A DNA stretch of 24,243 bases, from positions 1-24,243 of IMG/VR virus record IMGVR_UViG_3300010885_004199, one strand, 5' to 3'. The DNA comes from a virus. The notes below the pieces were generated by a model. It was not told the origin of the DNA and ran no database searches. It saw only the letters and a program-made list of their open reading frames with translations. A program made the position numbers and the translations under genes. Shown here piece by piece: positions 6,306 through 24,103 of this stretch. Numbering within the stretch: the first letter of the stretch is position 1; every line of letters begins with the position of its first letter.

Positions 6306-7160
6306 TCATTCCGGCAGTTCGGTGAAAGCACCATTGAACGCGACCTCGTTGTATACCTTAAACGTCAACATATCTGGCGGCTGGCCGGGCGATTTCGCAC
6401 TGCCACCACTCAACGCAACCGGTTCGCTCACCGGCTCTCGCATCGCGTCGAGGATTTTCCTGCGCTCACCGTTGACGATTTGGTTGTAGCCAATGTCCCA
6501 TAGCTTGAGCTTCCAGCCTTCCGCCCGGTAGGCAATGTCCACAGATATTTGCCAGTACGCAACCTCTGCGTCGTCAACTTGTTCGACTTCGCGTTGCCCG
6601 TTTATTGATTGAACCTTGAGTGTGCCGGGCGCAAACCCAGACCACGAATCACTGTTTACGGCGTTTGCATAGCCCATCGCCATATCGTACGGAAAGTTTT
6701 CACGGTTGCCGCTGATCTGAATGTGCCACTGCGCGTACTCTTTTTCGGCACCCTCAAGCGGGTCGCCAGCAGAATTGACAATCAGCTTGGGTGCGGTGAA
6801 CCCGTCGTTGTAGTGGACAATTGCGGGGCCGCTCGTCGCTGAACCGCTGAACGTGAACTTATCCGCACGATCCCACGGCATCGGTTCGCGTTCTTCCTCG
6901 CGTACAAGGTCATAGGTGAACTCGACTTTGTAGTGGAGTGGGTCGCCGTCCTGCTGTGCGTTGATGTTCGTGCAGTAGACGGCACCAAACTCGGGGTGCG
7001 CGTCGAGCCAGTTGATTCCCGGTTCCTTTGAAATGTCAGACACAGACGTACTCGGATCGTCAATCGTGACAACGAACGTCCGCTTGCACTTCACGTTCTG
7101 CCCAAAGTCCTGCGAACCGCCACGACCATCAGCAGTCTCGACGCACGCGACGATACTCAT
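6306..7160 (-). CDS. Putative distal tail / baseplate-type protein (284 aa)
   Basis: The gene directly follows the tape measure gene with a 4-bp ATGA overlap, the place where siphoviruses encode distal tail or tail-tip proteins. The protein is soluble, acidic and beta-rich, with recurring aromatic strands (YWQISVDIAYRAEGWKLKLWDIGYNQ) and no signal peptide or membrane segment. This would fit a ring-forming distal tail protein or baseplate hub, but I find no diagnostic motif, so the role rests on synteny. The ribosome binding site is AGGTGGTGA close to the ATG. Two Cys lie near the N-terminus (VACVE and VKCKR). Confidence 0.6.
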   Translation of the reverse strand: MSIVACVETADGRGGSQDFGQNVKCKRTFVVTIDDPSTSVSDISKEPGINWLDAHPEFGAVYCTNINAQQDGDPLHYKVEFTYDLVREEEREPMPWDRADKFTFSGSATSGPAIVHYNDGFTAPKLIVNSAGDPLEGAEKEYAQWHIQISGNRENFPYDMAMGYANAVNSDSWSGFAPGTLKVQSINGQREVEQVDDAEVAYWQISVDIAYRAEGWKLKLWDIGYNQIVNGERRKILDAMREPVSEPVALSGGSAKSPGQPPDMLTFKVYNEVAFNGAFTELPE

Positions 7161-10100
7161 ATACTCACCACCTGTTCCTCGCGGAGTGCAGCGTCAACGC
7201 TCGCCAACAACTTGCTCTGCTTCTCAAGTTCCTTGAGTTGCTTCTTGGTCGGGTCGTCCTGCCCTCGCAGCAATCGGAAGAACGTGCTGGCACCCTCGCT
7301 GCTGTTTACGTCAACAGCTTGATTGGCTCGACGGTCTGGCCCCTCTTGATTCTTGCGAACGTCATCGACGCTCGACTCTAGTTCGTCCTTCAAGTTGCCG
7401 ACACGTTCCTTAAACGTCTCAGGGTCAATCGCCCCAGCGTCCAGCGCGTCCTGCAATTTCTTTTTGTCCTCTTTGAACTTATCCGCAGGCGTTTTTTCGT
7501 TCGCACCCGGCAGCGACTCTGCCATTTTCTTTTTGAGTTCAGCCGACCGTGAATCCAGTTCACCGCTATCAATCGCACCGCCGTCAAATGCCTCTTGCAG
7601 TTTTTTCTGATCCTCTCGGAACTTGTCAGCAGGAGTTTTCTCAGCGGCACCGGGCAACGCATCGTTGAGTGTCTTCTTCAAGTCAGCCGCTCGCCGCTTG
7701 AACTCGCCCTCGTCGATCACGCCATTGTCGAAAGCGTCTTGAAGTTTCTTCTGGTCGTCTCGGAACTTTTCCGTGAGCGACTTCTCGCCACCGGGTAACG
7801 ACCCCGCAGCCTTTTCCTTGACCTGTGCTTTTGCTTTTTCCTTTTCTTCCGGCGAGAGCGTCTTGTTGTCGTCGATTTTTTTCAACTCGGCGGCGACCTT
7901 TTCACCTTCCGTTTGCATCGACTCCCGCATCTTCTTGGCAAAGTCAACGTCCTCGCCCACTCGCTTGAGTTCCTCATTCATCGCATCGGTGGCTTCGGCC
8001 ATTTGCTTGCGAGCCTGCTCGGGGTCAATCAACCCGCTTTCCATTTGGCTCTTGATAGCGTTCGCGGTCGCAGCAAACTCGTCGCGTGCAGCCTGCCCAG
8101 CGGCACCAAGTTCCTTGCCAGCCTGCGCAGACTTTTCGATTTCTTTCGTAATATCTTCCGAGGCTTTTTTCTGTTCCTCTGCGGTTTTCTTTGCCGCCTG
8201 CGCGATTGGGTCTTGCTTGGCAAACTCGTCGCGAACCTTTGCCTCGGCAGCAGCACGCTGCTCGGCAGTCAGCAGCCCCCGCTGCTCCAGGTCGTTCAGT
8301 TCCGTCATCTTTTGCTGCAACTTTTCGTACGGCGAAAGAATGTCGTCCTTGATTGTGGCCGCGCGCTGCTCGGCTTTTTTCTGGTTTTCTTCCTCCTGCT
8401 TTGCAAGTTCTTTGCTCGCAGCCATCTGTTCTTCGATCGCCTCTTTGTCTTCTGGGCTCGTCATCTTCTTGGGTTCAATCCCCGCCCAATACTCAAGCTG
8501 CTCGACAACGTACGTCACCCAGCCACCGACCATCGCAAATGCTTGCCCGATAAGTTGCGCCCCGCCCGTCAACGATGAAAACAAACCAGACAAAAGATTG
8601 CTTTGTCCCACCCACTCCACCGCACCGGCTACGAGGTTACCGAAGATTGTGTAGACGGCGGTCATGCCGCGCAGGATGTTGTCGCTGACGAACGCAGCGA
8701 CCTGCTCCAGGCCAGCGACCATCGGTTCGATGAATGAATCCACCGCTTCGAAGTATCGCCCCCACTGGTCTACCGCCGCGCCGATTGCAGAAGCGATTAC
8801 GGTGATGCCACTCATCTGCCCCAACGCACCGACAAGTCTCAGGGCGTACCCAATTCCCTCGCCCATTCGTTCCACCACAAGCCCGATACCGCCACCCACC
8901 TCCGCAAACAGGTTGCCAATCGGAGCGAACGCTTTTGCCAGCCCGCCCGTTACCGCAGCAAGACCGTTGCCAACTCGTGTAAACAGTTCCGTAAACGGAG
9001 TCAGCAGAACCTTGCCAAGACGCGAGCCAGCCACGCCCACGTTGTCAAACGAATCGTCGAGGGCTGAGAACCGCTCGACGTCCACCTGACTCATCGTGCC
9101 ACCCAGGCGGGCGATGCCAGCCCGAGTCGCATCGATCGCAGCGAGGGCAGGCAGTACGTCGTTGCCAGATTTCCCGAACAGTTTCATCGACAGCGCGGCG
9201 CGGGTCGCCGGGTCTTCGATGGCGTTCAGTTTTTTTGCCGCCTGCTCCAGCAATTCGTTCGGATTCGTGTTGGCGATTTCTTGCTGAGAGAATCCGAGAG
9301 CAGCGAAAGCTGCCACCTGCTTCTCGGCTCCTCCACGAGCCTCACTGACGGCCTTGAGGAACTTCGTCTGCGCACCAGCCAACGCCTCGACGTCCACACC
9401 CGCATTTTTTGCAGCGACTCCGAGTACCTCGTACTCTTGGAACGAGACTCCCAGGCGTGTCGCAAGCTGTTGTGTTCGCTCGACCTCGGCCCCTACGGCA
9501 CCGAGTGCGCCAGTCAGGCGGGAGATGGCTGCAACAGCACCGCCGACCACCGCACCGATGACAGCGATCTGAGGAGCGATTCCAAGCAGCGAGGCACCGC
9601 CAGACGAAAACGCATTTGACAGTCCTCCACCAATGTCAGAAAACATGGTTTTCAGACCAGCCCCGAAGCCGCCAGAAAAGCCAGCCATCATGTTCTTGAG
9701 TCCACCCCCGAATTGGTCAAGAGCGCGGGCGGCAGCGCCGATCGGGCCGGGCATATTGCCGAACGCTTGTCCCAGAGTCTGAGCCTTTGGCACAGTTCCG
9801 TTCAGCGAGTCCTCGGCCTTTTTGCTTGCGCGTGCAAACGTCTCTTGAGAGATTGCACCTTGGTTGACCAGCCCGCGCAGGTCAGCCATCTCGGCATCGT
9901 ATCGTTCCGTTGCGGTCAGGTTCGCCTGCGTGACGGACTTCCCTCGGTCCATCGCAGCGTTGAGAGCCTTCACGGCAGGGTCAGCGGACTGGACCGCACG
10001 ATTGAAAGTCTCCTGCGTTATCGCACCCTGCGATAGCAAGCCTTGCAGCGAAGCCAGTTCCTGCTCGTACTTCTCCTGCTCAGTCAGGTTCGCCTGCGTG

Positions 10101-11005
10101 ACGGACGCACCGCGAGCCATGGCATCGTTCAACGCCTTTACAGCAGGGTCAGCAGCTTGAGCAGCGCGAGTGAACGTCTCTTGAGTAATTGCACCCTGTG
10201 AGAGTAGAGCCGACAGCGACGACAACTCTTGGTCGTACTTCTCCTGCTCAGTCAGGTTCGCCTGCGTGACAGACTTCCCTCGCTCCATCGCAGCAGCCAG
10301 GGCCGCTGCAGCAGGGTCAGCCGCAGCCATCGCGTCCCGAACGTGCTGTGTTGCAGCAGCGTACTGCTCGTCGTCAATGATGCCCCGCGCGAAAGCAGAA
10401 CTGAGCGTGTCGAGTTGCTTTTCATATTTTGCCGTCGGCCCACTCATTCCAGCCAGGACACTCTGCGTCTCTTGCATGACGCGGTTGAACGCCTGCTGAT
10501 CAGTCTCTGCGCCATTGATTGACCCAGGCAGCGTTGCGATCGTGGATCGGTACTGCTCGGCTGAAATCTTTCCAGACGCAAACGACGCACGGTTTTCAGC
10601 GAGACCGTTCTTGAGTTTCTCCAACGCAGGAGTCGCAGCCTGCGCAGCCGCAACGATCTGCGATTCAGCCTGCGCAAGCTGCTCCGCAGACATTCCAGCC
10701 GCAGCCTGAGACCCCCGCAATGCCTCCAGGCCAGACTGGATTCGGTCCGCCTCGCTGACCGCCCCCTTGAACCTAGTTTGCAGCCTTGCATACGAGGCTC
10801 CGAAAGCCTCAACCGAAGTGCCACCGCTAGCAAGCCGACCAGATAGGTCAGCCATTTTTGCGGCAAACTCTCCCTGCATTGCAGCAGTTCGCTTCGCAGC
10901 AGACGCGAAGTTGCCGAAGCCCCCCACGGACTGATTGATCGCACCGAGGAGTCCACTCGCTGACGCAGTGAACGTCGCCCGTACTGAACCAATCGCCTCA
11001 CCCAT
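7157..11005 (-). CDS. Phage tail tape measure protein
   Basis: At 1282 residues this is the longest gene, placed after the tail assembly chaperones as in nearly all siphoviruses. Tape measure proteins set tail length, fill the tail tube and help DNA entry. The N-terminal 240 residues are Ala-rich helical/coiled-coil. Residues 246-413 are three near-exact 56-residue repeats beginning VTQANLT. A hydrophobic segment lies at about 473-497 (PQIAVIGAVVGGAVAAISRL), with more Gly/Ala-rich hydrophobic stretches at roughly 650-850. Residues about 880-1060 are a charged coiled coil rich in Lys, Glu and Ala, and residues 1070-1212 are three 47-48-residue repeats beginning LPG. The ATG at 11005 has GGAGG 7 nt upstream and overlaps the chaperone ORF by 8 bp. 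No lysozyme or peptidase domain is evident. Confidence 0.93.
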   Translation of the reverse strand: MGEAIGSVRATFTASASGLLGAINQSVGGFGNFASAAKRTAAMQGEFAAKMADLSGRLASGGTSVEAFGASYARLQTRFKGAVSEADRIQSGLEALRGSQAAAGMSAEQLAQAESQIVAAAQAATPALEKLKNGLAENRASFASGKISAEQYRSTIATLPGSINGAETDQQAFNRVMQETQSVLAGMSGPTAKYEKQLDTLSSAFARGIIDDEQYAAATQHVRDAMAAADPAAAALAAAMERGKSVTQANLTEQEKYDQELSSLSALLSQGAITQETFTRAAQAADPAVKALNDAMARGASVTQANLTEQEKYEQELASLQGLLSQGAITQETFNRAVQSADPAVKALNAAMDRGKSVTQANLTATERYDAEMADLRGLVNQGAISQETFARASKKAEDSLNGTVPKAQTLGQAFGNMPGPIGAAARALDQFGGGLKNMMAGFSGGFGAGLKTMFSDIGGGLSNAFSSGGASLLGIAPQIAVIGAVVGGAVAAISRLTGALGAVGAEVERTQQLATRLGVSFQEYEVLGVAAKNAGVDVEALAGAQTKFLKAVSEARGGAEKQVAAFAALGFSQQEIANTNPNELLEQAAKKLNAIEDPATRAALSMKLFGKSGNDVLPALAAIDATRAGIARLGGTMSQVDVERFSALDDSFDNVGVAGSRLGKVLLTPFTELFTRVGNGLAAVTGGLAKAFAPIGNLFAEVGGGIGLVVERMGEGIGYALRLVGALGQMSGITVIASAIGAAVDQWGRYFEAVDSFIEPMVAGLEQVAAFVSDNILRGMTAVYTIFGNLVAGAVEWVGQSNLLSGLFSSLTGGAQLIGQAFAMVGGWVTYVVEQLEYWAGIEPKKMTSPEDKEAIEEQMAASKELAKQEEENQKKAEQRAATIKDDILSPYEKLQQKMTELNDLEQRGLLTAEQRAAAEAKVRDEFAKQDPIAQAAKKTAEEQKKASEDITKEIEKSAQAGKELGAAGQAARDEFAATANAIKSQMESGLIDPEQARKQMAEATDAMNEELKRVGEDVDFAKKMRESMQTEGEKVAAELKKIDDNKTLSPEEKEKAKAQVKEKAAGSLPGGEKSLTEKFRDDQKKLQDAFDNGVIDEGEFKRRAADLKKTLNDALPGAAEKTPADKFREDQKKLQEAFDGGAIDSGELDSRSAELKKKMAESLPGANEKTPADKFKEDKKKLQDALDAGAIDPETFKERVGNLKDELESSVDDVRKNQEGPDRRANQAVDVNSSEGASTFFRLLRGQDDPTKKQLKELEKQSKLLASVDAALREEQVVSI
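7370..7798 (-). repeat. Three tandem 141-144-bp (47-48-aa) repeats near the tape measure C-terminus
   Basis: Units begin with LPG codons at minus-strand positions 7798, 7657 and 7513. Each continues EK(S/T)..(E/D)KF(R/K)(E/D)D.KKLQ(D/E)A and a core of the form GxIDxxxF/L. This core resembles the GAITQETF core of the 168-bp array, so both arrays may stem from one helical-hairpin module. These units are more diverged from each other than the 168-bp units. Confidence 0.85.
9767..10270 (-). repeat. Three tandem 168-bp (56-aa) repeats in the tape measure gene
   Basis: The units start at minus-strand positions 10270, 10102 and 9934, exactly 168 bp apart, each opening with codons for VTQANLT and carrying a core of the form LLSQGAITQETF. 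The DNA is conserved as well as the protein, implying recent duplication or gene conversion. A diverged upstream unit (around 10270-10440, GPTAKYEKQL to AAAMERGKS) suggests the array was once longer. The whole array is in frame, so unit changes would alter predicted tail length. Confidence 0.9.
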
Positions 11006-11342
11006 CGCTGGCCTCCGGTGCGGGGGCTGGCTGGAACAGCCCGCCGAGTTTCATTAGTTCGCTTTGGATATCGGACTCATCCATGACTCGTTGGTAGTGG
11101 CACGGCATGAAGTTTCGTTCGTCAACGTCCTTCGCTCCAGCAGACCAAGCAATCGCAGACGCAATAGTTGCCGTCTGCCTCCAGGCATTGCCCCACGGCT
11201 CATGAACGTAATACGCCTGCCACTCAGCCAACTCAGCAGCGTCGCACCGCTGGAGCAACTCCCTGACGGTGCAGCCCAGAGCCAGCGCGAGTCGGAAATA
11301 GAACTTCCTTGAAACGTGGCCCTCTCGCGGAGGGCGGTCTAG
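10998..11342 (-). CDS. Tail assembly chaperone T-like part, made as a -1 frameshift extension (gpGT)
   Basis: This 114-residue reading frame lies in the -1 frame relative to the upstream chaperone gene and should be reached by ribosome slippage at 11342-11348, giving a fusion of about 228 residues. The sequence FYFRLALALGCTVRELLQRC, then YYVHEPWGNAWRQTATIASAIAW and RNFMP matches the pattern of lambda gpT/DUF4035-like proteins (a YxxEPxG helix turn and a closing DF-type motif). Such fusions bind the tape measure protein and recruit tail tube protein during tail assembly. There is no credible independent start: the GTG at 11396 lies inside the upstream gene with poor spacing, and the next ATG is far into the domain. 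It overlaps the tape measure gene by 8 bp. Confidence 0.82.
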   Translation of the reverse strand, partial: LDRPPREGHVSRKFYFRLALALGCTVRELLQRCDAAELAEWQAYYVHEPWGNAWRQTATIASAIAWSAGAKDVDERNFMPCHYQRVMDESDIQSELMKLGGLFQPAPAPEASDG

Positions 11343-11348
11343 TTTTTT
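11319..11348 (-). promoter_or_regulatory. Programmed -1 frameshift site: slippery heptamer plus downstream hairpin
   Basis: On the minus strand, codons GCA AAA AAC TAG give the slippery heptamer A_AAA_AAC (11348-11342) in the correct phase, immediately before the stop of the chaperone gene. Six bases later a perfect 6-bp GC-only-rich stem follows, GCCCTC/GAGGGC with loop CGCGA (11335-11319). A 6-nt spacer falls in the usual 5-9 nt range. After slipping, reading resumes at CTA GAC CGC into the T-like frame. The arrangement is the textbook element of lambda-type gpG/gpGT genes. Confidence 0.88.
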
Positions 11349-11683
11349 GCTGCTTCCTCCACTGCGGTCGTCTCGAAACCGTTGAGCCTCATGCACTCAC
11401 GGAACAGCCTTTCGATGACCAACGCGGACTTGTTCCCAAGCCCCTCAAGCTCGTCATCAGAGAACAGTGGCTGCCCTTCGTCGTCGCACAGACAACGCCG
11501 CAGCATCTTGAGTTTGTATTGCGGCAGGAGTTTGTCCTCGGTGGACTGCCACTCTCGCTCGAAAGATTCTCGTTCGGTTCCAGACATAACACGGAGCAAA
11601 ACAGAATCGCCCCATTCGGGAACTTTGATTTCCTTTGTGGAGCGATCATCGGCGGAAAGAATCTGTGCTTTTGACAGTGGCAT
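11339..11683 (-). CDS. Tail assembly chaperone (gpG-like)
   Basis: This 114-residue protein opens LSKAQILSADD and continues KEIKVPEWGDSVLLRVMSGTERESFE, the pattern of phage tail assembly chaperones that carry VPEWG and a following SG.ER.(A/S)FE helix. The gene sits between tail-tube-like genes and the tape measure gene. Its last codons include the slippery sequence, so most ribosomes would make this short form and a minority the extended gpGT form. Family members coat the tape measure protein until the tail tube polymerises and are not kept in the virion. The ATG at 11683 has AAGGAAG about 5 nt upstream. The C-terminus is acidic and helical (SALVIERLFRECMRLNG). Confidence 0.85.
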   Translation of the reverse strand: MPLSKAQILSADDRSTKEIKVPEWGDSVLLRVMSGTERESFEREWQSTEDKLLPQYKLKMLRRCLCDDEGQPLFSDDELEGLGNKSALVIERLFRECMRLNGFETTAVEEAAKN

Positions 11684-11701: not shown

Positions 11702-12073
11702 TTACGAAAACGACCTCTTGAAAGTGTAGCTCACCTTCAAAACGTCTCCGGCTTTCGCCACGACCTTCATGCTTTCCATGATCGCGTGCGGAAAGTTGAT
11801 TGACCATCCGCCAGCACCACTCACCGTCAACGCAGCCTTCGTTCCAACCGAGCTGGTATTAAACGAAGTCGCAATAGCCGACACGCTCATCGTGTGGTCG
11901 CACACGGTCTTTTCGTAGATAGACAGATAGCGACCAGCCTCGTCCACCGAGTTCCCCATCAGCGGGTGAATCTCGCGCGACGGGGAGTTGAACTGAGCGT
12001 CAATGTCCGTGACCTTGCCGAGGTTAGAACCACCGAAACTGATGGTAGTCCCCTGCGCAGATATGACAGCCAT
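11702..12073 (-). CDS. Tail-tube-like structural protein, paralogue C (123 aa)
   Basis: The third of three neighbouring genes with the same design: an N-terminal strand pattern ISFGGSNLGKVTDIDA, matching VTFSFGGAIGHLTGIDV in the middle gene, and a C-terminal AGDVLKVSYTFK, matching VGDIVKVSLTFK. Size, beta-rich composition and position just before the tail chaperones suggest a tail tube or tail-tube-like subunit. This copy is the most diverged and lacks the mid-protein VCT/ICT motif. GGGG lies about 8 nt upstream of the ATG at 12073. The tube assignment is by synteny; a minor tail or decoration protein is possible. Confidence 0.65.
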   Translation of the reverse strand: MAVISAQGTTISFGGSNLGKVTDIDAQFNSPSREIHPLMGNSVDEAGRYLSIYEKTVCDHTMSVSAIATSFNTSSVGTKAALTVSGAGGWSINFPHAIMESMKVVAKAGDVLKVSYTFKRSFS

Positions 12074-12091: not shown

Positions 12092-12448
12092 TCAGTCTGG
12101 CGGGGTGCCGAGCTTGAACGTCAGCGAGACCTTTACGATATCGCCGACGGCATACTTCACACTTGCCGCCGTGCAGACAGCCGTGCCAGAAATAGAGCCG
12201 AGCGAGGTCGTGACAGTCCCTTCAGAGCCGACAACTGGGTAGCTCTCATCAGACGAGAACAACGCCTCGACCTTGACTTCGTCGCCGTCGAGTAGCTGGG
12301 CTGGTTCGTAGGTTCGCGGGTCGCCGTCGTCCAGCGTGAGGTCGCTAGTGTCGATCGTCCCGCCAGCGCGGCTGACGTCGATGCCAGTAAGATGCCCAAT
12401 GGCACCCCCGAAAGAAAACGTAACACCCTGCGATGTATCAATGGGCAT
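12092..12448 (-). CDS. Tail-tube-like structural protein, paralogue B (118 aa)
   Basis: The middle of three paralogues. It has the N-terminal VTFSFGGAIGHLTGIDV, an acidic central part (DLTLDDGDPRTYEPAQLLDGDEVKVEALF), a conserved TAVCTAASVKYAVGDIVKVSLTFK near the end, and one Cys. It shares with paralogue A an identical 18-nt stretch covering the ribosome binding site and start codon, so the pair arose by duplication. AGGAG sits 8 nt before the ATG at 12448. No enzyme motif is seen. The likely role is a tail tube subunit or close homologue, built into a hexameric tube. Confidence 0.68.
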   Translation of the reverse strand: MPIDTSQGVTFSFGGAIGHLTGIDVSRAGGTIDTSDLTLDDGDPRTYEPAQLLDGDEVKVEALFSSDESYPVVGSEGTVTTSLGSISGTAVCTAASVKYAVGDIVKVSLTFKLGTPPD

Positions 12449-12485: not shown

Positions 12486-12866
12486 TCAGTCCTTGCTGAG
12501 CTTGAACGTCGCGCTGCCTTTGATCAGGTCACCGACCGAAGCCTTTACACTGGCTTGAGTGCAAATGGCCTTCGTGCAGACTCCAGAGTTCGTGCAGCCG
12601 AACGAGCCGGTCAGAGTGAAATCGTCTTTCACCCCAACGTCCGGCAGGCCAGAGCCTATGAAGTCGACCTTTACCTCTGGCGAATCAGACAGCGGAGCCT
12701 TTCGGAACATACGTCGCTGACCAGCCACGATGCCGAGGTGCGAAACGTCGATCTGAGCAGCCGTCCCAGAGACGTCAATGCTCGTGATTTTGGCAGACAG
12801 TCCACTGAACGTGAACTCTGCACCACTCTGCGAAGATAGAACTGTGCTAGTGGTTGACTCTGGCAT
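12486..12866 (-). CDS. Tail-tube-like structural protein, paralogue A (126 aa)
   Basis: The first transcribed of three paralogues. It has AEFTFSGLSAKITSIDVSGTAAQIDVSHLG near the start, an acidic loop, and ICTQASVKASVGDLIKGSATFK at the end, aligning by eye with paralogue B (VCTAASVKYAVGDIVKVSLTFK). It carries an extra Cys-bearing insertion, GCTNSGVCTKAIC, that could form a disulphide or metal-binding loop. AAGGAG lies 8 nt before the ATG at 12866. Coming straight after the tail completion gene, it is the best placed of the three to be the main tail tube protein. Confidence 0.68.
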   Translation of the reverse strand: MPESTTSTVLSSQSGAEFTFSGLSAKITSIDVSGTAAQIDVSHLGIVAGQRRMFRKAPLSDSPEVKVDFIGSGLPDVGVKDDFTLTGSFGCTNSGVCTKAICTQASVKASVGDLIKGSATFKLSKD

Positions 12867-21481: not shown

Positions 21482-22354
21482 CTACCTCGCTTTGCGGTAC
21501 TTGTCGGAGATGATTCTCGGCACGGCATACTTCCACTGAACCATGTGATGAACACGACGGTTCGTATCACCCATCATAGAAACCTTGACGCACGACGGCG
21601 CATACATGACGGTCGTGAATGCCTTCACGTACGTGCCATAGTCCCGGTACATGTCAGAGACTCCACCACCCTGCGACTGAGTTGGAAGTTGCGAGACCCT
21701 CAACCGTGGAGCCGTGAAGAAAAGCTCGCCGCGACCACCGGACACGACATACGCAGTGACGTCCTCGTTCATGATCCCTCGGAAGTCGATAGGCCGGTCA
21801 ACGTGGCAAAGGAAGGTGTTCATGGCCTTCCGTGCGAAGCGGCCCTCCGCCGCGAGCATGGCGAATCGCCCCTTCCCACCGCCAATGAAGTCACCGCCCT
21901 GAGAAAACGCCAGCGTTTTCGCCCCGCTTGTTTCGAGGAACTCCAGGCAGGCGGCAAGCACGTTATCGATATTGAGAATTCGGCTTGACGCATTTGCGTT
22001 GAGAAATCTCCCACGGTTGTCCGACGACCAGTTGAAGGTCGTATAGTCGTCGTCAAGCTGCCAGAAATATCGAAGCCCTAGTTTTCTGGCAACGTCGTAC
22101 GCTGCGTGGCGGGCGAACAGAATCCCAGCACGTTTCCCCAGGTTGTTCCCTGAGTCGCAGCGGCCGACGTACTCCTGCTTATTGAACACGACAACAGCGT
22201 CACCATATTCCTGCTCGTACGCGGCACGCTGGTCGTCCTCGTCGTCGAGCAGGATAAAGAGCTTGCCCGTATAGCCGGATCGCATGAGCGAGCGGTACGT
22301 CACGACATTTTTTGCTCTGCCGTGAGTCAGAATGAACGTGGCGAAGTTTTCCAC
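21482..22354 (-). CDS. TET-associated-type glycosyltransferase (TAGT-like), putative DNA base glycosyltransferase
   Basis: The 290-residue protein matches the pattern of the glycosyltransferase family found beside phage TET/JBP oxygenases (and as a domain of animal GREB1). ATFILTHGR at 5-13 is followed by VVTYRSLMRSGYTGKLFILLDDED, then LGLRYFWQLDDDYTTF with the nucleotide-sugar-binding acidic DDD at 101-103. The C-terminus has QGGGVSDMYRDYGTYVKAF, a MYAPSCVKVSMMG segment and RVHHMVQWKYAVPRI. Members are proposed to add sugars to oxidised 5-methylcytosine in phage DNA. The GTG at 22354 overlaps the ParB-like stop by one base, with AAGGA 7 nt upstream. No TET/JBP gene is in the window, so the substrate is inferred. 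The call is from motif memory; the match across the whole length is convincing. Confidence 0.85.
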   Translation of the reverse strand: MENFATFILTHGRAKNVVTYRSLMRSGYTGKLFILLDDEDDQRAAYEQEYGDAVVVFNKQEYVGRCDSGNNLGKRAGILFARHAAYDVARKLGLRYFWQLDDDYTTFNWSSDNRGRFLNANASSRILNIDNVLAACLEFLETSGAKTLAFSQGGDFIGGGKGRFAMLAAEGRFARKAMNTFLCHVDRPIDFRGIMNEDVTAYVVSGGRGELFFTAPRLRVSQLPTQSQGGGVSDMYRDYGTYVKAFTTVMYAPSCVKVSMMGDTNRRVHHMVQWKYAVPRIISDKYRKAR

Positions 22355-23139
22355 TATTTGTCCTTTTCGCTTGCGTACGACTCACGAAGCAACTCACCGA
22401 GCCTCGCCCATCCGTTTTCGATTGCCTTGTCAACGTCCACGATCACGCAGGCACTGTTCTCGAAAAGCCTCTGCACCTCAGGTTCAGAGCCAGCATAGTA
22501 GTTTGCAACGCGCTCGAAATCGAAGACAACGTGCCGCATCGCAGCCATTCGCAGGAACTCTTTCTCGTCCTCAGGCACTCCGCTCGCCTCAATCTCTGCG
22601 AGCAGTTGCTTTGCCTTTGAGGAGTCGCAGAGTTCGGGCAGCGTCGGCTTCGGCCCCGTGACCTCGTAAGGCGGCGCGCCGATCTTTGCCGTGTACGGGT
22701 TGTCTCCACCTTCATCGTCCACCAGTTCGTCGCTGAGACCAGCGCTAGAGGAAACGAAGTCGAGCAGCGTCTTGACAGATTCGTTGTCCGTCGAGACTTG
22801 CCCCAGCAGCGCAGCGAGTTTTTCCTCGTCAGCGACAGCCATCGCAGCCAGCGGGTCGAGGGTTGCCAGGATTGTGTCGGCTTCCTCCTCGGTAACGTCG
22901 AGTACCAAAACTGGTACGGTCTCGTCAGCAGCAGTCTCGGCACGAAGGTGCCCATCGACCAGCATGAGTTCGCCGTTAGGTAACTCCCTCGCAAGACACG
23001 CATCGGCGAATCCAATTTCCTCCAGCACGCCACGCAGTGCAGACTTCTGAGAATCAGGATGCGTTCGCCAGTTTTTGGGGTTCGGGATCAGTTGCGAAGC
23101 GGGTACTCGGCGGAACTCTTTGATTCGATCCTTAAACAT
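22354..23139 (-). CDS. ParB/Srx-like nuclease-domain protein
   Basis: The N-terminal half matches the ParB-like fold: VPASQLIPNPKNWRTHP, then ALRGVLEEIGFAD and ELMLVDGHLRAETA with the DGHxR motif at 62-66, followed by VPVLVLDVTEEEADTILATLDPLAAMA. The C-terminal half is a second conserved-looking domain (SKAKQLLAEIEASGVPEDEKEFLRMAAMRHVVFDFERVANYY) with AMRH. In phages such proteins occur beside DNA modification enzymes and may act as nucleases, CTP-binding proteins or specificity factors. The ATG at 23139 has GGGAG at ideal 8-nt spacing; the ATG at 23145, two residues longer, is too close to that site. It overlaps the radical SAM gene by 8 bp. No methyltransferase domain is fused. Confidence 0.85.
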   Translation of the reverse strand: MFKDRIKEFRRVPASQLIPNPKNWRTHPDSQKSALRGVLEEIGFADACLARELPNGELMLVDGHLRAETAADETVPVLVLDVTEEEADTILATLDPLAAMAVADEEKLAALLGQVSTDNESVKTLLDFVSSSAGLSDELVDDEGGDNPYTAKIGAPPYEVTGPKPTLPELCDSSKAKQLLAEIEASGVPEDEKEFLRMAAMRHVVFDFERVANYYAGSEPEVQRLFENSACVIVDVDKAIENGWARLGELLRESYASEKDK

Positions 23140-24103
23140 TCGCATCGCTCCCAGGGTTCAAGCACGGGCCGCAAACGGGATGCGATGCCCACTGTCCAGA
23201 CGCGTGCGTGTTCCTCAACTCCACCAACGACGGGTGGTTCCAAGCATCTCGCAGCGACATATTGTTGACGTTCCCGACGATCAGTTTCTTGCCAGCCAGC
23301 TTGCAGCACGGCTGAATGTTCCCCAGGTGGTCAACGACGAGTTGCTTAAACGGGAAGTCACAACCACTCGCCTTGCTTTCAATCACGGGCAGGGTCAGAT
23401 TCGTCACCCGATCGGGAACCTCATTCATCGTCTGGAAAGTCACAATGTCAGCGACGTTCTCCCACTGCCTTCTGAACTGTTCTTCCTCGTGGATGTTGAC
23501 AGCGTTCTTGAGAAAGCTGACTCGCACCAGCGGGAAGCCCAGGCCACGAGCGTTCCGCATCTCAATGAACCGCAGCACGTTCGCCACCACGAGGCCGAAC
23601 TTACCAGACAGTCGTTGCTTGTCGTACGTCTCAGGCGTTGCAGCGTCGATGCTGATGAATAGTTTCGTCAGCCCGCAGCCTAGCAGCGACTCCGATCTGC
23701 TCTCAGTCAGCAGGGTGCCATTCGTCACCACGAACACGTTGATGATCCCAGCATCGCGGGCAAAACGGATGCACTCCTCCAGGTCGCGGCGCATCAACGG
23801 CTCGTTGATGTAGTTGAGCTTGAGACTCTTTGTGCCAAGTGAGACAGCCTCCCGCAGCACCTTTTCGAAGACGTCTCGCCCCAGGTTCACGTTCGGGATT
23901 TTGTCGTACCCGTGGATGCAGAACGGGCAACGCATGTTGCAGCCACCGTTCAGTTCGACGTCGATCTGGATTGGGAAGTCAGCCGGTTGCAACTTCTCCC
24001 GGCGGGCAAACTCGGCTCGGAACTCCACCCACTGCTGCGGGTCAACGTCGGGCGGGCAGCGACTCAGCAGTTCACGCCCCACAATGTCGAAAAATGCGTC
24101 CAT
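23132..24103 (-). CDS. Radical SAM enzyme with SPASM-like C-terminus
   Basis: The 323-residue protein has the CxxxCxxC cluster motif at C55, C59 and C62 (GGCNMRCPFC), a GTNG-like VVTNGT near 127-130, and SISIDAATPETYD near 150-161, all typical of the radical SAM core. The C-terminal third has C248, C266/C267 and C311/C314, resembling the SPASM/twitch auxiliary iron-sulfur site. Such enzymes use S-adenosylmethionine to start radical reactions, often on peptides or carbohydrates; an auxiliary cluster suggests a substrate contact or redox step. It lies upstream of the ParB-like and glycosyltransferase genes in the operon, so a role in base or sugar modification is plausible. The ATG at 24103 has GAGG 7 nt upstream. 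It does not look like the shorter QueE enzymes. The substrate is unknown. Confidence 0.88.
   Translation of the reverse strand: MDAFFDIVGRELLSRCPPDVDPQQWVEFRAEFARREKLQPADFPIQIDVELNGGCNMRCPFCIHGYDKIPNVNLGRDVFEKVLREAVSLGTKSLKLNYINEPLMRRDLEECIRFARDAGIINVFVVTNGTLLTESRSESLLGCGLTKLFISIDAATPETYDKQRLSGKFGLVVANVLRFIEMRNARGLGFPLVRVSFLKNAVNIHEEEQFRRQWENVADIVTFQTMNEVPDRVTNLTLPVIESKASGCDFPFKQLVVDHLGNIQPCCKLAGKKLIVGNVNNMSLRDAWNHPSLVELRNTHASGQWASHPVCGPCLNPGSDANV

Follow-up and report, generated by a model that had tools for sequence, protein, structure and literature searches.

The window analysed here, a virus record, comprises 24,243 bases, and according to family matches its minus strand carries terminase, capsid, tail and tape measure genes. 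The site lies on this strand between the place of the tail tube gene (upstream) and the tape measure gene (downstream), which is the location of a G/GT-type chaperone pair. The following features were identified, listed in the direction of translation:

11339 to 11683, minus strand: zero-frame gene for a G-like tail assembly chaperone of 114 amino acids (PHROG 344, E 5.1e-28)
11356 to 11360, minus strand: Shine-Dalgarno-like GGAGG, 7 nt upstream of the heptamer, a likely stimulator judged by the motif position in relatives
11342 to 11348, minus strand: slippery heptamer A_AAA_AAC, in phase, read from the sequence and conserved in relatives
11339 to 11341, minus strand: zero-frame stop codon TAG, read from the sequence, flush with the heptamer
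11319 to 11335, minus strand: hairpin with a 6-bp stem (GCCCTC/GAGGGC) and a 5-nt loop (CGCGA), starting 7 nt after the heptamer
10998 to 11342, minus strand: −1 frame extension with a Phage_tail_T domain (PF06223, E 1.1e-8, above the cut-off; PHROG 337, E 1.2e-14)
7157 to 11005, minus strand: tape measure protein gene, matched by tape measure families, directly downstream of the T extension

The 3′ end of the chaperone gene reads GAG GAA GCA GCA AAA AAC TAG. The heptamer fits the pattern X_XXY_YYZ and lies within a stretch that is open in both frames; it is the only in-phase A_AAA_AAC among the ∼7,100 codons of the minus-strand genes of the window (expectation ∼6e-5 per codon position). The T-like domain in the −1 frame runs on from the chaperone, which also matched PF06222 weakly, below the cut-off. 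The original prediction had described a tail chaperone gene with a gpT-like −1 extension, an in-phase A_AAA_AAC directly before the stop, a 6-nt spacer followed by a perfect 6-bp hairpin, and a fusion of about 228 residues. All of the elements that it placed at 11319-11348 were recovered, on the minus strand, which it had left unstated: the heptamer at 11348-11342, TAG at 11341-11339, the spacer TAGACC (6 nt with the stop included), and GCCCTC-CGCGA-GAGGGC at 11335-11319. The PHROG 344 and PF06223 matches fall in the right frames, and the computed fusion is exactly 228 amino acids. The GGAGG was absent from that description.

The site is very probably one of −1 programmed ribosomal frameshifting, as in lambda G/GT, yielding a G-T fusion. 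Alongside the observed sequence anatomy, conservation and family assignments, we infer the slippage, its rate and the roles of both products in the following scheme. Most ribosomes would read A_AAA_AAC, meet the TAG and release the 114-residue chaperone, and a minority would be slowed by the downstream hairpin and perhaps also by the upstream GGAGG. The slowed ribosomes would slip back one base on the heptamer, enter the T frame and make the fusion of 228 residues. If the analogy with lambda holds, its G part would bind the tape measure protein and its T part would recruit the tail tube protein.

A perfect 6-bp stem at such a spacing occurred at 1.2% of the minus-strand positions and in 1.7% of synonymous recodings, and the stem by itself is modest evidence against chance. 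When the whole region (89 nt) was folded, the result was not better than that of shuffles (z = +0.35). The predicted probability of the hairpin ranged from 0.01 to 0.99 depending on the stretch folded, with longer-range pairing displacing it in some fold windows. A downstream stimulatory structure, common at such sites and not universal, is nevertheless suggested by the retention of the stem in close relatives. The site had no match in Rfam, and the NCBIfam search gave no match. By eye, a possible pseudoknot was seen between the loop CGCGA and a UCGCG ∼40 nt further on, a pairing that does not look conserved among the relatives.

The strong evidence for the predicted frameshift site is comparative. 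Viral contigs with chaperones 69-83% identical to that of the window retain the heptamer, the flush TAG and the stem. Seven distinct sequences, six relatives plus the window, make up the close set. Where the encoded residue is conserved, the codons were invariant in all columns of the heptamer, first −1 codon and four-codon stem (7/7), compared with 14/89 comparable columns elsewhere (Fisher p 1e-5); the stem codons taken alone were 4/4 invariant (p 0.001). The first −1 codon is CTA, which creates the stop. The loop and spacer codons vary among the seven sequences and the surrounding synonymous codons drift. Because the stem never varies, no covariation could be scored and no compensatory change was seen in this clade, and the invariance speaks for constraint only.

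These comparisons also bear on whether T might be a gene of its own, with translation beginning at a separate start once the chaperone has terminated (by reinitiation or translational coupling), and the heptamer incidental. In favour of this, a GTG lies in frame at 11396 of the window, an ATG is found at +23 past the stop in some relatives, and two separate genes are annotated here in several named phages. However, neither the GTG nor the ATG is retained across the clade, and the codons of heptamer and stem have been preserved against a background of synonymous drift. In two close relatives, L003 and L004, no start codon occurs from the upstream T-frame stop to +74 or +62, respectively, and by these positions the conserved T region has already begun. 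Separate initiation of the full T domain is therefore unlikely in the close clade, in agreement with the earlier statement that the T frame lacks a good independent start, and as a general account of the site we regard a separate T gene as very improbable.

One relative, L006, is identical to L008 in the T region apart from the loss of a single base (∼4433), which breaks its T frame. The missing base is probably an assembly error. Such a single-base difference could be taken to mean that the frame change in the window is itself a sequencing or assembly error, or that the gene has decayed. However, dozens of contigs assembled independently of one another, and named phages as well, show the same frame arrangement, and this explanation, to which we give next to no credence, is thereby refuted. 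A wider set comprised 108 distinct homologues from viral contigs, bacterial genomes and named phages. A heptamer stood directly before the stop in 79 of the 108 (A_AAA_AAC in 72, G_GGA_AAC in five and others in two). The remaining homologues either lacked a canonical heptamer or had one at 3 nt, 36 nt or a greater distance upstream of the stop. A second class of site, in which exactly 36 nt separate the heptamer from the zero-frame stop, was observed in L109, L112, L118, L120, L129, L135, L023 and L026. A nucleotide search of named phages gave no matches.

The G_GGA_AAC homologues argue against transcriptional slippage, in which the six-A run would give rise to mRNAs with an extra base and the fusion would be made without ribosomal frameshifting. 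Insertion of one A into the run would lead to the same frame, but a run of six is short for bacterial RNA polymerase to slip on, and the corresponding heptamer of these homologues, in identical position and phase, contains only three A. Transcriptional slippage is unlikely for this reason; moreover, the conserved phase, hairpin and spacing are not needed by such a mechanism, and we consider it scarcely credible here.

For ribosomal frameshifting, a role of structure is also suggested outside the close clade. The sequences downstream of the flush sites were predicted to be more stable than their synonymous recodings (mean z −1.5 over 63 sequences, which are related and thus non-independent). 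Two subclades have longer GC-rich hairpins, which start 7-8 nt past the heptamer and have registers that differ by one base. Pairing reached 98.8 and 90.5% of cells, whereas slid controls did not exceed 64%; in each hairpin, two pairs show changes on both sides, as expected of compensatory change. These pairing counts are supportive and do not amount to a blind test, because the subclades and structures were chosen after the sequences had been seen. Different predicted hairpins thus sit at nearly the spacing of the window in other subclades. A single common register for the distant clade was rejected, since two registers one base apart were needed.

Of 74 relatives with a flush site, 60 have GGAGG, GAGGA or AGGAG at the corresponding position upstream of the heptamer. 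The region encodes a conserved Val-Glu-Glu, and the first Glu is GAG in 60/67 sequences, compared with 67% for the other Glu codons in the same genes. Both the motif and its position resemble the dnaX stimulator, and by this analogy it is plausible that the GGAGG stimulates frameshifting.

The frameshift, the chaperone and the gpT-like extension of the original prediction were thus supported by the family matches, by the conservation of heptamer, stop and hairpin, and by the want of a usable T start in close relatives, but its suggestion that the adjacent stop may raise slippage was not supported, and data from the HIV-1 element point the opposite way (PMC4373837). In mammalian cells, a stop placed right after the HIV-1 slippery site cut −1 frameshifting by ∼70% (PMC4373837), and the release factor competed with frameshifting at that stop (PMC4373837). 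The same authors report that the adjacent stop lowered frameshifting by this element in bacteria too, and that a raised level of RF2 abolished the frameshifting there (PMC4373837). Some other frameshift sites have an adjacent stop by nature (PMC4373837). The HIV-1 element differs from the window in its heptamer and partly in the ribosome, and the stop effect carries over only indirectly; by analogy, the flush stop in the window may reduce the yield of the fusion.

Among the 79 homologues with a flush stop, TAG was used in 31, TGA in 30 and TAA in 18. On a chaperone tree built without the C-terminus, parsimony gave 14 changes among the three stops, a count that depends on a poorly resolved tree, of which the well-supported branches force only a few stop changes. 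Mean distances from slippery site to stop of 26 nt (SEA-PHAGES set) and 36 nt (Xu set) have been reported (PMC10885494); compared with these, the 79 of 108 indicate that the flush stop is common in this chaperone family and less typical elsewhere. CTA accounts for 5% of the leucine codons of the window and for 1.8% of those in homologous genes, and this rarity is only suggestive of selection for the stop because the homologue set was picked for the flush stop. Conservation of the flush stop across the family could reflect release-factor competition or simply the need for a clean end of the short product. That the stop has been selected for tuning, and is more than a neutral end, is a doubtful proposition in our view. 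If it were true, the stop would stand in the A site while the release factor competes with slippage, and both release factor activity and the choice of stop codon would influence the ratio of G to G-T in the chaperone family. Many of these phages retain a flush stop yet alternate among TAG, TGA and TAA, and they offer a natural set for testing the influence of release factors on −1 frameshifting.

The slippery site of lambda is G_GGA_AAG, whereas the window has A_AAA_AAC abutting the stop. In both, the tape measure gene is preceded by a chaperone and a T domain that continues from it in the −1 frame, and PF06223 (Minor tail protein T) matches the extension in the window. Lambda G/GT is the type case of tail chaperone frameshifting (PMC5009743), and measurements on two further tail chaperone genes of phages gave 6-7% frameshifting (PMC3711429). 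A point against the reading given here is that A_AAA_AAC slips less readily in E. coli than A_AAA_AAG does (PMC5009743).

Homologous chaperones, with 35-36% identity to that of the window, occur in the Streptomyces phages phiSASD1 (gp35/35.1) and Dubu (gp13/14), in which G_GGA_AAC stands directly before TGA and GenBank annotates a joined CDS; they differ from the window in this heptamer and in the downstream sequence. A homologous chaperone is also found in Acinetobacter phage AbIPP1 and Psychrobacter phage Psymv2, with A_AAA_AAC directly followed by TAA and a T frame open for >120 codons, but there two separate genes are annotated and the stem of the window is absent. The shift in E. coli dnaX makes the shorter product, on the heptamer A_AAA_AAG. 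Shared with dnaX are a heptamer of the A_AAA_AA type, an upstream Shine-Dalgarno-like stimulator and a 3′ hairpin (PMC5009743), and in some other bacteria the zero-frame dnaX stop is thought to come directly after the site (PMC5009743). In Acinetobacter phage Loki (gp12/gp13), AAAAAAC adjoins the chaperone stop as a likely frameshift site (PMC5313236); the likeness of Loki to the window lies in the heptamer-stop arrangement. The site is thus of an already described kind, the flush heptamer having been noted in Loki and annotated in phiSASD1 and Dubu. A reading made from the sequence alone had found a real recoding signal, and dozens of uncultured phages are added to a well-known frameshift family.

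Upstream of the chaperone, where the tail tube gene is expected, three adjacent and mutually related small genes were found on the minus strand (11702-12073, 12092-12448 and 12486-12866). They show 26-28% identity to the first, their family matches are weak, and they are possible tail tube paralogues. Inside the tape measure gene, a tandem repeat with a period of 168 bases (2.4 copies) lies at 9915-10321, and the tape measure protein has SHOCT-like matches in repeated stretches. A phage integrase match was found at 58-597 on the plus strand, opposite to the structural genes, and a radical SAM protein with a SPASM domain is encoded at 23132-24103 on the minus strand. A strong match to the TET-associated glycosyltransferase family (PF20691, 5.8e-35) at 21482-22354 on the minus strand hints at DNA base hypermodification in this phage.
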